Positions 57,210-63,046 of a stretch of 64,000 bases of DNA are shown here, piece after piece. Positions within the stretch are counted from its first letter, which is position 1. Every line of letters begins with the position of its first letter. This stretch comes from Ancylobacter koreensis (GTDB taxonomy: Bacteria > Pseudomonadota > Alphaproteobacteria > Rhizobiales > Xanthobacteraceae): NCBI RefSeq assembly GCF_023016525.1, contig NZ_JALKCG010000001.1, positions 434,001 through 498,000 on the forward strand. Reading direction: 5' to 3'. The notes beneath the pieces were generated by a model. It saw only the letters and a program-made list of their open reading frames with translations, was not told the DNA's origin and did no database searches. The position numbers and the translations under genes were made by a program.

Positions 57210-58397
57210 ATGCGCCGCCATGCCTGTGCTGAACATCCGGCGCTGAACGCCCTGCTTCCCACGATCATCGAGCAGCACTCCGCCAATCGGGACTATTGGG
57301 GCGTCGACCATTACTACGAGCTCGACGGCGAAGCGGTGGAGACGGTGCTTTCTCCCGCCGCCGAAGAGCTCTGGGCGTTGTGCCTCGACTTCGTCGCCCG
57401 CGCGGTGGACGACGAGCGCATCCTCGAGTCGCTCGGCATTCCCGGCCTCGCCTGGGACGCCGTGCGGGCAAGCTGGCGCCGCGCCGACCCGCTGCTGTTC
57501 GCCCGTTTTGACCTGAGCTTCGACGGGCATACCCCGCCCAAGCTGCACGAGTGCAATGTCGACGTCGTCGGCCTGCTCTATGAGACGGCGGTGTACCAGG
57601 CCAACTGGCTGCGCCGGCAGCAGGCCGAGGCGCGCCTCACCGCCTCGGCGCGCCAGATGGCGGATCTCGAAGGCGCCGCCGGGCGCATGGCCGCGCGCCG
57701 GTTCGGCGATCGCCCGGTCGAGCTGGTCTCGCTGGACGACGACCCCTATGACGAGCTCTGGCAGTACACGCTGTTCCGGATTCTCGACGGCGCCGGCATC
57801 GCCTGCGATGTGCGCAACTACACCTCGCTGGAAGCCTTCCTCGCCTCCCTGCCCGCGTCGGCGGGCAGCGCTGTGGCGCCCTATGTGGTGAAGGGCTTTC
57901 GCTGGGATCATCTCATCCGGGACAGCGCGCTCGCCTTGCATGTCGGCGCCCTTCCCGCCGGCATTGCCGCGCCGCTCTGGTCTGCGCTGCTCAGTTCGAA
58001 AGGCTCGCTCGCCTGGCTGTGGCACTTCAACCGGGGCCATCCCAATCTGCTGGCCAGCTTCTTCGAACCGGCCCGGCTCGACGATGCCGACGGCTATGTC
58101 GCCAAGCCGCTCTTCTCCATCCAGGGCCAGGGCATCGAGCTGCGCGACCGCCGCGCCCCCGGCCGCAATTGCGTCACCCGCGCGCCCGGCCCCGTCTGCG
58201 GGCGGGTCTATCAGGACCTGCACTATCTCCCGCGTCCCGCCGGACCGGTTCACGCCAATGGCGGGGCGGGCGGCCCCTGGGCCTCGACCGGCGTCTGGAT
58301 GGTCGAGGGCAGGGCGGTCGCCCTCGGCATGAGCGAATGCGACAGCCCGATCATCACCGACGACGCCATGCGCTTCGTTCCCCATGTTCTCGCCTGA
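57210..58397 (+). CDS. Glutathionylspermidine synthase-family ATP-grasp protein (YgiC/YjfC-like)
   Basis: The 395-residue product resembles the C-terminal synthetase half of GspS and stand-alone YgiC/YjfC proteins, which join a carboxylate to an amine with ATP. Family landmarks are YYELDGEAVETVLSPAAEELW and FDLSFDGHTPPKLHECNVD (Glu114, Asn116, Asp118; usual E-x-N-x-D metal/ATP site), then VYQANWL. The late YVAKPLFSIQGQGIEL around Lys299 corresponds to the usual KPL-x-REG loop, but the REG arginine is absent, so substrate binding may differ. GAAGG precedes ATG 57210. It is the first of four tightly packed genes with an acyl carrier protein. The product made here is unknown. Confidence 0.85.
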   Translation: MRRHACAEHPALNALLPTIIEQHSANRDYWGVDHYYELDGEAVETVLSPAAEELWALCLDFVARAVDDERILESLGIPGLAWDAVRASWRRADPLLFARFDLSFDGHTPPKLHECNVDVVGLLYETAVYQANWLRRQQAEARLTASARQMADLEGAAGRMAARRFGDRPVELVSLDDDPYDELWQYTLFRILDGAGIACDVRNYTSLEAFLASLPASAGSAVAPYVVKGFRWDHLIRDSALALHVGALPAGIAAPLWSALLSSKGSLAWLWHFNRGHPNLLASFFEPARLDDADGYVAKPLFSIQGQGIELRDRRAPGRNCVTRAPGPVCGRVYQDLHYLPRPAGPVHANGGAGGPWASTGVWMVEGRAVALGMSECDSPIITDDAMRFVPHVLA

Positions 58398-59052
58398 CAC
58401 CATGATGCTGCCTGACACCACGTCCTTGCCTGACGACACGATCCCTCTCGCCGCCTCCCTCGTGCTGCGCCCGCCGCTCAGCGACCTGCGCGCCTATATC
58501 CACGCCGCCGACCTGTTCGACGCGCTGGCCGTGGCGACGGGCGCCGCCGGGCCGACCTTTCTGCGCCTCAGCCGCATTTCCGACGAGGCGGTCGAGCTGC
58601 GCCACGACGCCCCGCGCCCGGGCGATCCCGATTTCTGCGGCCTGTTCGGCCATGCCGCGCCCGGCCGCCCGCTGTCCGGCTGGCTGCGCCGCCTGCCGGG
58701 CGAGGTGGTGCGCGCGCGGGCGCCGCTGATGGATGCCGAGGTGATTCCCGGCGCCGAGTTCGGCATGGATGGCGCCCGCGTGCGCCGCCGTCCCGGCTGC
58801 AGCGTCGCGCGCACCGCCGTCCTGCTGGCGGTGGCGCTGCTGGAAGAGCTTTTTCCCGACGACACCTGGAACCTCGCCGAGATCACCGCCGAGCGCGGCG
58901 AGGAGACGGGCGCCGATATCGGGGGCGAGCCGGTCGCGGTGCGCATCGCCCGGCAGATGAGCCGTTTCCTCGTCGTCGAGGTGACGGCAGACGAGCGTTA
59001 CTGGGGCCGGTTCACCCTGGCCGCCACACCCCTCCGGAGCGGAACAGTCTGA
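58384..59052 (+). CDS. Orphan protein of the ATP-grasp/ACP operon
   Basis: I do not recognise this 222-residue protein. The N-terminus holds three short repeats of PDT/PDD (MLPDTTSLPDDT), from a direct repeat of CCTGACACCA in the DNA. The rest looks like a soluble mixed alpha/beta domain: LRAYIHAADLFDALAVATG, TFLRLSRISDEAVELRHDA, DAEVIPGAEFGMDGARVRR, a long helix SVARTAVLLAVALLEELF, and RFLVVEVTADERYWGRFTLA. No signal peptide or membrane helix is seen. ATG 58384 overlaps the previous gene by 14 bp; ATGs at 58402 and 58405 are alternatives. The stop overlaps the ACP start by one base. Context suggests action on an ACP-bound intermediate. Confidence 0.72.
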   Translation: MFSPDTMMLPDTTSLPDDTIPLAASLVLRPPLSDLRAYIHAADLFDALAVATGAAGPTFLRLSRISDEAVELRHDAPRPGDPDFCGLFGHAAPGRPLSGWLRRLPGEVVRARAPLMDAEVIPGAEFGMDGARVRRRPGCSVARTAVLLAVALLEELFPDDTWNLAEITAERGEETGADIGGEPVAVRIARQMSRFLVVEVTADERYWGRFTLAATPLRSGTV

Positions 59053-59300
59053 TGGACGATCTCGACGCGCGGATCCTCGCCGTGGCGCGCGGCGCCAACG
59101 CCAAGCTGGGCAATGTCGACATCGACCCGTTCGAGGATTTCTACACGCAGGGTCTCGATTCGCTCGACCATGTGCAGATTCTGATGCGGGTCGAGGAAGC
59201 CTTCGGCGTGACCATCGCCGACAGCGATTACGACCTGTGCACATCGCTCGCGCGAATCCGCGACTTCATCCTGCGCGAGCGCCACGGCGCGGCGGCCTGA
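59052..59300 (+). CDS. Acyl carrier protein
   Basis: The 82-residue acidic four-helix protein has FYTQGLDSLDHVQILMRVEEAFGV, with Ser37 in DSLD as the 4'-phosphopantetheine attachment site. It differs from fatty-acid AcpP by FEDFYTQG in place of the usual loop and by a basic C-terminus (RERHGAAA), so it is a specialised carrier. It starts in the stop of the orphan gene (TGATG) and is followed 43 bp later by the hydrolase. No dedicated phosphopantetheinyl transferase is seen nearby. Confidence 0.93.
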   Translation: MDDLDARILAVARGANAKLGNVDIDPFEDFYTQGLDSLDHVQILMRVEEAFGVTIADSDYDLCTSLARIRDFILRERHGAAA

Positions 59301-59343
59301 CGCGTCGCCCGCCCTTGATATCGTGCCCGATCAGGACATGCCG

Positions 59344-60264
59344 ATGGACAGCGAAGAGCCGTTCCGCCACCTCGCCGCCGCCTTCGCGCGGGCGGTACAG
59401 CACGGTGGCCGGCCGACCCCGCAGAAGGGCAACATCTTCCAGCATCTCTCGGTGCTCAACCAGCTGGCCCGCAGCCATCCTCTGGAGGCGGCCCGGCTCT
59501 ATGCGGCCTCCGCCGAGATCCCGTGGGGACGCTTCGCCTCGCTCGACGCGCTGCGCCAGGTGATCGTGCAGGCCCCGAGCAGCGGCGACGACGCTGTGGA
59601 CGGTTTTCCGCCCCTGCGCCCCGATATCGACTATGTGACCCTTCCCTATCCGGGCGCACGCAAGGTGCTGTTCGTCTTCACCGGCGCCGCCCACCAGTTC
59701 GGCGCGCCGCTGCGCGTGATGCACCAGTGGTTCCGGCGGCTCGGCGTCTCGCTGGTCTATGTTTTCGACATGGACTGGAACTACTATCTCGGCACGGTGC
59801 GCGGGCTCGGCGGCAGCGTCGGGGAGACCGCCGCCGCCCTTGCCGCGATCCGGGACGAGCTGGGCGCCACCTCCTGCTACTGCGCCGGCAATTCCGGCGG
59901 CGGCTTCGGCGCGCTGCTCTACGCGCCGCGGCTGGGGGCGCGGCGCAGCCTCGCCTTCTCCCCGCCGACCGCCATCCGCGAATCGCTGGAGAGCGTGCGC
60001 CGCAAGGGCGCCCGGCTCGACGGGCTGGTCTCGCCGCGCGGCGAGGTGGAGCTGCGCGCCTTCTATCTCGACGCCGCCGAGGCCCCGCCCGCGCGGGTCC
60101 ATTTCGCCGCCAACAACGCACATGACCGCGACGAGGCGGAAAACCTCGCCGGCCTGCCGGGCATCGAGCTGCTGCCGCTGCCCGACACCAACCACAATCT
60201 GATCCCCTCCTTCATCGCGCGCGGCCTGTTCATGCCGGCGCTGGAGTGGCTGGTGGCGGACTGA
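59344..60264 (+). CDS. Alpha/beta-hydrolase-fold protein of the ATP-grasp/ACP operon
   Basis: The 306-residue product has the nucleophile elbow CYCAGNSGGGFGALLYAPRL (Ser184 in G-N-S-G-G). A strand-turn VLFVFTGAAHQFGAPLRVMHQW forms the oxyanion region, and a late DTNHNLIPSF carries the probable catalytic His284. The acid may be in the DRDEAEN segment. Such a fold next to an ACP is commonly a thioesterase or acyltransferase; the activity is inferred. ATG 59344 has AGGA seven bases upstream; GTG 59323 and ATG 59338 are alternatives. The N-terminal 80 residues form a helical extension before the hydrolase core. Confidence 0.8.
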   Translation: MDSEEPFRHLAAAFARAVQHGGRPTPQKGNIFQHLSVLNQLARSHPLEAARLYAASAEIPWGRFASLDALRQVIVQAPSSGDDAVDGFPPLRPDIDYVTLPYPGARKVLFVFTGAAHQFGAPLRVMHQWFRRLGVSLVYVFDMDWNYYLGTVRGLGGSVGETAAALAAIRDELGATSCYCAGNSGGGFGALLYAPRLGARRSLAFSPPTAIRESLESVRRKGARLDGLVSPRGEVELRAFYLDAAEAPPARVHFAANNAHDRDEAENLAGLPGIELLPLPDTNHNLIPSFIARGLFMPALEWLVAD

Positions 60265-60334: not shown

Positions 60335-61291
60335 ATGAATGCCCTCATGAACGGCCCCGCGCGCTGCCTTGCCCGTGCCCTCCTGCGCCTTCCCGCCGCG
60401 CTCGCGGCGGCCTTGATTGCCGCCGCCCTCGCCTCGCCTGCGGCGGCAGATGCGCTGGCCGACTACGTCGCCGCGCGCGACAGCGCCATCGCCGAATCGC
60501 TGGCCGCGGCCAAAGCGGGGACGGGCGGCGAGGAGGCGGTGATCAAGCGGGAGGACGCCGCGCTGGAGGACCTGTCCAGGCGTCTCTCCGCCGCGCTCGG
60601 ACCGCTGAAGGTCAAGGGCCTCGGTGCGCCGGGCTACTCGCTTTACGGCTTCACCTATGACGAGAACACGCCGACGCGCCAGCTCGACGGCCTCGCCTTC
60701 GCCAACAAGGACCTGACGATCCGCCTCGTCGTCACCCCCGAGCCGGTCTTCCAGTCCTGGCTCGCCGCGCGCGGGAAGGACGAGGGCGCGCCGGCCGCGC
60801 TCGCGGGCGGCATCGAGGCGGCGATGACGACGAATGAATTCTACGGCAGCGCGCTTCTCGTCGAGGGCGGTTTCTTCCAGCCCTACATGACATTGCCGGT
60901 TACCGCCGTGCCGGGGGAGACCGCCTTCGCCGTGCTCGGCGTTCTGGCCGACGAGCCGCCGGGCAACACCCCGCCGGACCAGATCGTCATCGTCCGCCTC
61001 GCCGGCGGCAAGGCGATGGTGGGCGGGACGCTGGTGAAGCTGCCGATCAAGCCCATCGCCGCCTGCGACGCGCTGTGGAAGCCCTTCAAGCAGAAGGCCG
61101 ACGCGCTGGCCGCCGAGATCGAGAAGGCGGGCAATATCGAGGATCCGCGCTGGGAGTCGCTCTATGCCGGCCTCGACGCGGGCGGGGCGGCCTACCGTGC
61201 CTGCTTCGCCAGGGAGGCGCCGAACCAGCCCTTCTTCGCCGCTGCCCTCAAGCGCGCCGAAGCCTTCCTTCAGACCGCGCGCGGAAACTGA
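60335..61291 (+). CDS. Secreted protein of unknown function
   Basis: The 318-residue product has a long signal peptide (helix LLRLPAALAAALIAAALAS, then PAAADA with cleavage expected there). No catalytic motif is recognised. The mature part is rich in Ala and Lys and includes SLYGFTYDENTPTRQLDGLAF, VTPEPVFQSWLAARG and YRACFAREAPNQPFF, with two cysteines (KPIAACDALWKPF and RACFA) that could pair. ATG 60335 has a strong AGGAGG nine bases before it; the in-frame start at 60269 has none. The 70-bp gap after the hydrolase leaves membership of the operon open. Confidence 0.72.
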   Translation: MNALMNGPARCLARALLRLPAALAAALIAAALASPAAADALADYVAARDSAIAESLAAAKAGTGGEEAVIKREDAALEDLSRRLSAALGPLKVKGLGAPGYSLYGFTYDENTPTRQLDGLAFANKDLTIRLVVTPEPVFQSWLAARGKDEGAPAALAGGIEAAMTTNEFYGSALLVEGGFFQPYMTLPVTAVPGETAFAVLGVLADEPPGNTPPDQIVIVRLAGGKAMVGGTLVKLPIKPIAACDALWKPFKQKADALAAEIEKAGNIEDPRWESLYAGLDAGGAAYRACFAREAPNQPFFAAALKRAEAFLQTARGN

Positions 61292-61666
61292 GGGCGCCGC
61301 CGATTCGGCTGCAGGCTTTTCGCTGCAGGCCTTTCGCGGTGGGCCGGCGACGGCCTCGCGGCCGGCGTATGGCCTGCGCGGAACGCACGCGTCGCTCTGC
61401 GGCGCCGCTCGGCGGGGAAGAAGATGCAGGAGAGAATTGGTGGAGCCAGGCGGAATCGAACCGCCGACCTCTTGAATGCCATTTAGGGGAAATGGCTTGC
61501 CTCGGCTTTCCTCGACTTGCCGCTAGTTTCCTAACTCGTTGATATCGCGTCGTATGGCGTAGTAGGGCGGTTCCTTTCGTGGCGTCAAGTTTCCGTTCTC
61601 GTGCTTCCTATGTGCTTCCGGTCCTGCTATCCGTGCTTCCGGTCGAGAAAACAACCGGGTCGTGCC
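61292..61666. other. 375-bp gap carrying the attachment junction and integrase leader
   Basis: No gene is supported. 61292-61437 is chromosomal flank with nothing recognised. 61438-61482 is the tRNA-Ala 3' fragment. 61483-61666 is element DNA, less GC-rich, with short direct repeats (61599-61642) before the integrase. Confidence 0.6.
61438..61482 (-). other. Attachment-site half: 3' fragment of tRNA-Ala(GGC)
   Basis: On the minus strand the 45 bases run from the anticodon loop ATGGCAT (anticodon GGC) through TCAAG, the variable AGGTC and the T-arm GGCGG-TTCGATT-CCGCC. They end in TGGCTCC and ACCA. The 5' half (D-arm, 5' acceptor strand and the 5' anticodon-stem strand CTTGA) is missing; CCTAA stands in its place. 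It is a displaced 3' end, as left by site-specific integration, 185 bp from a tyrosine recombinase gene. Confidence 0.8.
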
Positions 61667-63046
61667 ATGGCAGCAAAGCTCACGAAGAGGATCGTCGACG
61701 CGGCAAAGCCGAAGGCGAGCGAATATTTCATTTGGGACGCAGGTGATGGGTCTCTGAAGGGCTTCGGACTGAGGGTGTGGCCTTCCGGCAAGAAGACGTA
61801 CGTTGCGCAGTTCCGAATTGGCGGCGGACGCGGCGCTAAAAGTCGGCGCGTCACCATTGCGGCCTGGGGCGGCGGATGGACCGTTGAACAGGCCCGCGCG
61901 GAAGCCGAGCGGCTGATCCGTGAAGCCGACAAGGGCATCGACGAGAAGGCCCTTCAGGAAGCCGCCGAGGCGGCCCATAGAGCCGCTCAGGAGGCCGCAG
62001 AGGCCGAACAGCGCCGCGCCGCCGAGATGCGCCTGTCGGTTCTCGCAGAACGCTTCATGTCTGAGCACGTTGCTCTCAAGCGCAAGGGAACCACAGAGGC
62101 GTTTTATCGGATCGTGCTCGACAGGCACATTCTCCCAGCCCTCGGCGACAAGGATGCGCGGCACATTACCCGCCAGGACGTGGCGAGGATGCACGCACGC
62201 CTCGCCGATAAAGCAACCATGGCGAACCGCGCCGTTGCGGTCCTTGGCGCGATCTATGGATGGGCGGAGCGGCTGGAAATTCTGCCGGAGGGCACGAGGA
62301 ACCCGACTACGAAAATCGAGAAATTCCGAGAGCAGGGCCGCGAGCGATACCTCACCGTCGAGGAGCTTGCCCGGCTGGGCGAGGCGATTCGTATTGCTGA
62401 GACTGTCGGTATCGAATGGGCGCCACGCGAGGGGGCAAATGCCAAGCATGCGCCAAAGGCCGAGCACCGCCGCGTCGTCATCGCGCCTGAGACTGCCGCC
62501 GCTCTGCGGCTGCTCATATTCACCGGCGCTCGCCTTCGGGAAATCCTTCACCTTGAGTGGAGCGCCGTCGACGTGGAGCGCGGTCTACTCCGCCTTAGAG
62601 ACAGCAAAACCGGTCCGAAGGTTATCGTTTTGAATGCACCGGCTCGCGCAGTGCTCGTCGGTTTGCCGAGAGTTGGGCGCTACGTGATCCCCGGCGATAT
62701 CAGCACCGGACCGGATGGCAGAACTATCGAGAAGCCGCGCGCAGACCTCAAGCGGCCTTGGGCGCTGGTATGCAAGGCGGCGGGCCTCTCCGGGCTTCGT
62801 ATCCATGACTTGAGGCATTCCTTCGCCTCGGTCGGAGCTGGCGAAGGTCATGGTCTCGCGATCGTCGGCAAACTATTGGGCCACGCGCAAGCTAGGACAA
62901 CCCAGAGATATGCCCACCTTGACAATGATCCGCTTCGAAAGGCGAGTGATGCAATCGCGTCTCGGATCGCGGCGGCGATGGGCGAAGCGCAGCGGGAGAG
63001 CACGGCGGAGGTTATCGAGATCGCAAAAGGGCGCATCGGCCGATGA
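61667..63046 (+). CDS. Tyrosine-type site-specific integrase (P4-like)
   Basis: The 459-residue product has an arm-binding DUF4102-like N-terminus (LTKRIVDAAKPKASEYFIWD, GFGLRVWPSGKKTYV). An Ala/Glu-rich helical linker (about 90-122) and the core-binding domain (LSVLAERFMSEHV) follow. Catalytic residues are Arg289 (TGARLREIL), Lys314, His380 and Arg383 (HDLRHSFAS), His406 (LLGHAQ) and Tyr415 (QRYAHL), so it looks active. ATG 61667 (MAAKLTK) is chosen over ATGs further upstream that precede the conserved domain. It is transcribed away from the attachment site. Confidence 0.94.
   Translation: MAAKLTKRIVDAAKPKASEYFIWDAGDGSLKGFGLRVWPSGKKTYVAQFRIGGGRGAKSRRVTIAAWGGGWTVEQARAEAERLIREADKGIDEKALQEAAEAAHRAAQEAAEAEQRRAAEMRLSVLAERFMSEHVALKRKGTTEAFYRIVLDRHILPALGDKDARHITRQDVARMHARLADKATMANRAVAVLGAIYGWAERLEILPEGTRNPTTKIEKFREQGRERYLTVEELARLGEAIRIAETVGIEWAPREGANAKHAPKAEHRRVVIAPETAAALRLLIFTGARLREILHLEWSAVDVERGLLRLRDSKTGPKVIVLNAPARAVLVGLPRVGRYVIPGDISTGPDGRTIEKPRADLKRPWALVCKAAGLSGLRIHDLRHSFASVGAGEGHGLAIVGKLLGHAQARTTQRYAHLDNDPLRKASDAIASRIAAAMGEAQRESTAEVIEIAKGRIGR

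Follow-up and report, generated by a model that had tools for sequence, protein, structure and literature searches.

A 64,000-nucleotide stretch of the Ancylobacter koreensis genome (hereafter the window) harbors four genes, A to D, which form a real, co-directional, closely packed and conserved set. They encode an ATP-grasp ligase of the GSP_synth (glutathionylspermidine synthetase) family, a predicted double-hotdog protein, an acyl carrier protein (ACP) and a protein of predicted alpha/beta-hydrolase fold (Table 1). We propose tentatively, with somewhat less than even confidence, that the genes constitute a carrier-protein cassette in which A loads C, B acts on the thioester and D transfers the group. 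Searches of open-licence papers, some of them on parts only, turned up neither the four-gene combination nor any description of a GSP_synth-type ATP-grasp protein together with an ACP; the parts are known families or folds. A general pairing of ATP-grasp and ACP is not new, since a passage of PMC4000134 lists both in a surface-carbohydrate cluster.

Conservation and distribution of the four-gene set

Genes A and B overlap by 14 nt and genes B and C by 1 nt. The gap between C and D amounts to 22 nt when D is read from its GTG codon, 37 nt from an ATG aligned with one in the congeneric genome G010 and 43 nt from the next ATG. An earlier note, made on this DNA from its letters, had described genes overlapping or lying within 43 bp, which is confirmed, its figure matching the later ATG of D. 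Congener G010 carries the four genes in the same order and with the same upstream neighbors, at identities to the window of 67% (A), 64% (B), 73% (C) and 68% (D). All four genes differ most at third codon positions between the two genomes (differences at positions 1/2/3: A 0.21/0.20/0.39, B 0.21/0.24/0.40, C 0.15/0.17/0.31, D 0.19/0.19/0.34).

Failure of the four families to co-occur in other genomes had been set beforehand as refuting, and the neighborhood survey did find them together as an operon. Complete A-B-C-D order is present at five fully readable loci, namely the window, G010, Stella sp. ATCC 35155 (L065/L068), Stella G1094 (L085) and Reyranella GW715_bin.16 (L067; G1047/L082 is apparently the same contig), and at a sixth, in an uncultured alphaproteobacterial metagenome-assembled genome (MAG; L069), where A is cut by the contig end. 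As the gene order recurs in Stella, Reyranella and the MAG at only 27-43% identity to the window proteins, chance adjacency of the four genes was rejected. Two further loci, in Reyranella G609 (L066/L070) and Stella G1093 (L084), comprise B-C-D without A. A GSP_synth search found no member in G609 and only an ordinary paralogue in G1093. A LysR-like gene (judged by eye) located beyond A in the Stella ATCC strain adjoins B in Stella G1093, and for this reason G1093 looks like a strain that lost A.

Profile searches with B, whose counts include the query's own genome where sampled, matched 4 of 385 genomes of the class and 3 of 297 of the order (one match weak in each case), 3 of 61 genomes from the family to which the Reyranella genome belongs, and three of the four Stella genomes, with no B match in the fourth. 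Those three Stella genomes were the only ones matched among 43 of their order. The phylum sample of 398 genomes yielded the window and one weak match (E 0.007); weak matches in G585 and G099 scored E about 3e-4, the one in G099 containing an internal stop. Among 72,556 plasmid records, Reyranella B found no match and the B relative of genome G073, described below, found one record; the family sample for G073 consisted of one genome. A search with D across 61 genomes, including the window's own, gave a match of any kind in 16 and a close match only in G010. Scanning of the genome contigs with A confirmed no candidate. The Na/H exchanger that neighbors the operon was sought in 30 genomes of the genus, of which 18 matched, and the short flanks of these loci (L104-L120) held no A-D relatives.

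Table 1 Features of the operon region, in window coordinates.
Feature	Position	Strand	Description
Gene A	57210..58397	+	GSP_synth-family ATP-grasp ligase, 395 aa
Gene B	58384..59052	+	Predicted double-hotdog protein, 222 aa; RxYxH motif, without canonical HxxxGxxxxP
Gene C	59052..59300	+	Acyl carrier protein; GLDSLDH attachment site, Ser37
Gene D	59323 (GTG) or 59338 (ATG)..60264	+	Predicted alpha/beta-hydrolase fold; Ser191-Asp268-His291; N-terminal helical region, about residues 1-85
ORF E	60269 or 60336..61291		Likely exported protein (by eye)
Possible element edge	61439..63046		tRNA-tail-like sequence (by eye), then integrase-like ORF
Integrase-like ORF	61601..63046		

Properties of the four proteins

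A belongs to GSP_synth (PF03738; E 2e-56, 192.1 bits against a cut-off of 29.3) and is the only match to this family in the window's genome, which holds six PF00550 matches. The solved proteins nearest to it are E. coli YjfC and YgiC (PDB 7uk6-7uk8), near whole-length relatives with ATP/Mg residues in common, followed by trypanothione synthetase and GspS. We compared the operon A proteins with 35 ordinary rows, comprising YgiC, YjfC and 33 ordinary GSP_synth members, the latter read out of 44 seen (39, 29 of them with loci, plus 5, 4 of them with loci). The MAG protein is partial and therefore covers only some sites; five operon A's are full-length. Residues R99, D101, E114, N116, K228, K264 and K299 are kept in every A row covering the site, and their Arg, Asp, Glu, Asn and Lys counterparts have Mg/ATP roles in the LmTryS model as given in the relevant passages of PMC3581523. 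R99, D101, E114 and N116 make up the Mg-phosphate set, and K228 and K299 are the two ATP lysines. The substrate site differs. A loop of sequence KPLFSIQGQGI stands where the 33 ordinary members and YgiC/YjfC have KP-x-x-[SAG]-REG-x-N, so that the altered loop noted earlier in this GspS-like ligase is real. Gly121 is found in 5/5 full-length operon A's and Thr in 35/35 ordinary rows, at the site equivalent to LmTryS Ser351, which is hydrogen-bonded to the substrate carboxylate (PMC3581523, same passages). The R304-E305 pair of the glycine-rich loop, present in 35/35 ordinary rows, is lost in 6/6 operon A's (I/N/V-Q/L/K instead), and S263 occupies a position where ordinary members have Asn or Thr. 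At each of these differing sites (121, 263, 304-305), the 35 ordinary rows vary little or not at all. Because the Mg/ATP residues are kept while substrate-site residues are replaced, A is probably active as an ATP-grasp ligase, though on a different acid substrate.

A FastTree phylogeny places the operon A's in a single clade with support 1.0, nested inside the ordinary family close to L032 and to the Stella and Reyranella paralogues L090-L093. Substrate-site changes and tree together reject A as an ordinary YgiC/YjfC orthologue. None of the 33 ordinary GSP_synth loci has a B, C or D relative within its flanks of ~1.5 kb (shorter for L047, at a contig end).

For B, sequence searches of Pfam, NCBIfam and PDB returned no match. 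Its AlphaFold model, built from an alignment of ten sequences (pLDDT 84.8, pTM 0.81), falls among double-hotdog proteins in Foldseek and VIA-align comparisons, with the top ten rows at Z 12.7-11.0 over 167-181 residues and a root-mean-square deviation (rmsd) of 3.5-3.7. These include a polyketide synthase (PKS) enoyl-isomerase (4u3v; Z 12.7, rmsd 3.7, 167 aligned) and a TesB-like protein (4r9z; Z 12.5, rmsd 3.5, 173 aligned), with PKS dehydratases at Z about 11. B is hence predicted to be a double-hotdog protein; its earlier description as a 222-residue orphan stands with respect to length and missing family match, but the label itself is superseded by the fold prediction. An RxYxH motif is present in 11/11 B proteins.

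Relatives of B are found beside carrier proteins in three other clusters, which contain sugar-modification genes. In genome G073, the B relative lies between a left-handed beta-helix (LbH) acyltransferase gene and a ketosynthase III (KSIII) gene with an ACP; NeuB and cytidylyltransferase genes belong to the same cluster. On the Pontibrevibacter nitratireducens plasmid NZ_CP049814.1, a B homologue (profile-profile probability 96.9%) again lies between LbH and KSIII genes. Both clusters resemble the operon in having a B homologue and an ACP, but contain KSIII in place of A and the LbH acyltransferase in place of D. The Pontibrevibacter locus (L097:12563-18083) is an amino-sugar cluster with genes for a GSCFA protein, ACP, LbH acyltransferase, B homologue, KSIII, FdtA/QdtA cupin and DegT aminotransferase. 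In Reyranella G1080, the gene next to a B relative encodes an AMP-ligase, and the cluster also contains ACP, hexapeptide, aminotransferase and deacetylase genes.

C matches PF00550 with 37.9 bits (cut-off 20.8), and the GxDS serine is present in 10/10 aligned ACPs. It reaches the cut-off of none of the NCBIfam ACP models listed, TIGR00517 acyl_carrier included (28.7 bits against 70.45), in agreement with the earlier view of C as a non-AcpP carrier.

D, whose residues are numbered from the GTG at 59323, has no Pfam match. Judged from its AlphaFold model (pLDDT 86.6) and aligned residues, it has the predicted alpha/beta-hydrolase fold, in line with the earlier note, and an intact Ser-Asp-His triad: S191, D268 and H291 are aligned in 22/22 D-family proteins. 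This family comprises the window and profile matches with E <= 2.2e-20, duplicate loci of one gene being merged; the cut was chosen after the list was seen and drops L019-L022 (E 8.3e-5 to 7.5e-9). The fold search, which barely covered the N-terminal region (about residues 1-85), returned the Gap123 complex (6oyc; Z 17.3), which we take to have an acyltransferase role, esterase D-like enzymes (Z 16-17), MPT51 (Z 15.8), the Neisseria meningitidis A capsule O-acetyltransferase (6yus; Z 15.8) and antigen 85C (Z 15.1-15.4); a family missing from these lists is not thereby excluded. As the Z scores are close to tied, they do not separate a hydrolase from an acyltransferase. The 6yus sequence matches D at only E 0.05, and its title names a coenzyme A complex, not an ACP.

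At 17 of the 22 D-family loci, D has an ACP gene no more than 100 bp away: the window, G010, G015, G008, G001, G019, G026, G027, G003, three Stella, two Reyranella, the MAG and two Azospirillum loci (flanks of only about 1.5 kb were available for G003, G008 and G024). Other ACP-D pairs occur in five congeners. At the four congener loci read with wide flanks (G015, G001, G019 and G026; L024-L027), the ACP gene overlaps a D-type gene, a YheC/D-like ATP-grasp gene adjoins (tblastn; Pfam on L026 only), and no A or B relative is present. On this gene content, these loci are best described as another cassette of the genus, related to the first. A YheC/D-like ATP-grasp gene also adjoins the truncated D of G023 (L028), where no ACP was found. 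On two Azospirillum plasmids (L098:6300-8651 and L101:6394-8687), an ATP-grasp-like gene directly precedes ACP and D, while a YheC/D ATP-grasp gene is located on the other strand; the two ATP-grasp-like proteins are 81% alike, and their Pfam matches (E 1.7e-5 and 0.006) both stay below cut-offs.

Of these two Azospirillum loci, that of TSH100 lies beside type I secretion, glycosyltransferase and sulfotransferase-like genes. Several D-like sequences occur in other arrangements. At L030:7224-9079 and L017:1190-3243, a D-like domain ends longer open reading frames (ORFs; 531 and 592 aa), each followed by an ACP-like stretch. On a Tritonibacter mobilis plasmid (L100:1425-9122), a D-like domain is joined to tetratricopeptide (TPR) repeats in a pseudaminic acid cluster with DUF4910 and ATP-grasp genes, and no ACP was found.

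A putative acyl-transfer scheme and its alternatives

From gene order and conservation, family membership, aligned catalytic residues, the predicted folds of B and D, and the pairing of B and D relatives with carriers, we infer the reactions, substrate and product as follows. A would activate a carboxylic acid as acyl phosphate and pass the acyl group to the phosphopantetheine thiol of C; less likely, C would already carry the acid and A would attach an amine to it. B may bind the thioester or modify it by dehydration, isomerization or selective hydrolysis. D would then take the group onto its serine and pass it to an acceptor bearing an amine or hydroxyl, for which an envelope sugar is plausible; release to water is the alternative. 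Loading of C by A is suggested mainly because D relatives pair with an ACP and an acid-activating enzyme (YheC/D ATP-grasp in four congeners, the ATP-grasp-like protein on two Azospirillum plasmids), and B relatives with an ACP and an acyl-ACP-forming enzyme (AMP-ligase in G1080, KSIII in G073 and Pontibrevibacter). A transferase rather than a thioesterase role of D is weakly indicated by the surface-sugar neighbors of some relatives and by the LbH acyltransferases in parallel clusters. The earlier note had envisaged a carrier-bound acid pathway without ketosynthase or adenylation gene: acid activation fits all four parts and no such gene is in the operon, but joining to an amine and release by D represent one of several readings.

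More doubtful is the general form of this scheme, in which A would be a GSP_synth-family carrier-protein ligase making acyl-ACP via acyl phosphate, one of several unrelated activators (other ATP-grasp types, AMP-ligase, KSIII) feeding a common carrier/double-hotdog/acyltransferase module that would build unusual acyl groups destined for amines or envelope sugars. The usual routes of carrier-protein loading are adenylating enzymes and acyl exchange, and to our knowledge there is no precedent for a carrier-protein ligase of the glutathionylspermidine-synthetase family. If true, a GSP_synth-type ATP-grasp would provide an added carrier-charging route in a conserved minimal cassette, and two groups without Pfam names, the double-hotdog family of B and the carrier-linked alpha/beta-hydrolase family of D, would gain annotations. 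With four proteins, the cassette is small enough to be directly testable in vitro.

Several observations weigh against a cassette in which A loads, B processes and D transfers. A is missing at two of the eight B-C-D loci (G609 and G1093), and is therefore replaceable or not the loader. Position 180 of A, at the polyamine site (LmTryS Glu407 equivalent), is Glu in three of five full-length operon A's and in 35/35 ordinary rows, which fits an amine substrate. HxxxGxxxxP, the canonical catalytic motif of PKS/FabZ-type dehydratases, is found in 0/11 B proteins. The top fold matches of D are mostly esterases, lipases and S-formylglutathione hydrolases (Z 15-17). Five of the 22 D loci have no adjacent ACP, namely G023 (with its truncated D), G024, Novosphingobium, Tritonibacter and G051, the last with an AMP-ligase beside D and the ACP 5.3 kb away. 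In the D tree, the operon D's are not a separate clade: the G051 protein groups with them (0.747). Finally, no pathway or acceptor gene adjoining the operon was recognized in the window.

The chief rival of loading by A is amide formation on the carrier, in which A would act as an acid-amine ligase (with a polyamine or amino sugar, for example) on an acid held by C, and D would hydrolyze the product off. The closest solved relatives of A, YgiC and YjfC, are reported to be peptide-spermidine ligases (Pederick 2023, as cited in a passage of PMC12568646), and the polyamine-site residue E125 (LmTryS Glu355 equivalent) is kept in 5/5 full-length operon A's, three of which have the Glu at 180. This position is Tyr in the window and G010, however, the substrate-carboxylate Thr and the R-E pair of the ordinary members are lost, and a role as loader is suggested by the KSIII and AMP-ligase genes that accompany B relatives and ACPs. 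We regard amide formation as rather unlikely. Loss of A at two loci counts against this reading and against loading alike.

We consider it similarly unlikely that the cassette yields a free small molecule, with D as a thioesterase releasing a soluble acid or amide, a reading compatible with either role of A. It draws on the esterase-type fold matches of D, but acyltransferases score in the same range, and the location of several B and D relatives in surface-glycan clusters suggests an immobile acceptor. More improbable still is a B-C-D core in which C receives an acyl group from general metabolism, B processes it and D transfers it to a surface sugar, A being an accessory that decorates the acid or product. 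The B-C-D loci without A in G609 and G1093 would be explained, as would B or D relatives in nonulosonate, amino-sugar, capsule and pseudaminate clusters; yet A is adjacent and first at 6/8 loci, and in Azospirillum an ATP-grasp-like gene directly precedes ACP and D.

Loading of C by A, followed by transfer through D, would have partial parallels in known systems. In butirosin biosynthesis, the ATP-grasp protein BtrJ works with the stand-alone ACP BtrI, a likeness to A and C that we draw by description only; the pathway uses pyridoxal phosphate (PLP) and oxygenase steps, and has no hotdog or D-type hydrolase. ACP carriage in butirosin is treated in PMC2922099, the relevant passages of which do not mention BtrJ. 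The Dlt system, in the parts of the literature consulted, similarly combines an activating ligase (DltA) with a small carrier protein (DltC) for envelope modification. DltA is a relative of acyl-CoA synthetases, and Dlt transfer is carried out by membrane proteins, not by an alpha/beta hydrolase. Gap123 and the meningococcal O-acetyltransferase share the alpha/beta-hydrolase fold with D, but their Z scores are tied with those of esterases. In Clostridium acetobutylicum, the CA_C2195/DUF4910 surface-carbohydrate neighborhoods comprise an ATP-grasp aminoacyl ligase, ACP, aminosugar N-acetyltransferases and a NeuB-type synthase in one cluster; the passages of PMC4000134 describing them name no GSP_synth type or four-gene unit, and they are likened to A-D by description only. 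The Tritonibacter D-like gene has DUF4910 and an ATP-grasp gene nearby, as in these neighborhoods. The azaserine cluster contains an ATP-grasp gene and carrier proteins, but its authors, in the part of PMC10445470 concerned, doubt involvement of the ATP-grasp protein.

Surroundings of the operon

The divergent upstream neighbor of the operon encodes a Na/H exchanger (PF00999), and the large ORF beyond it an RND-type transporter, judged by eye. A promoter scan at the operon found none, and terminator-like sites lie inside D or E. Downstream of D follow the unrelated ORF E and an integrase-like ORF. E was rejected as a member of the operon, as blastp (E up to 0.01) found no relative among the loci fetched by then, including G010, later loci not being searched for E; it has no Pfam match. 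The sequence that resembles a tRNA tail, within which no full tRNA was called, and the integrase-like ORF behind it have the look of an integrated element's boundary, immediately beyond the operon region.

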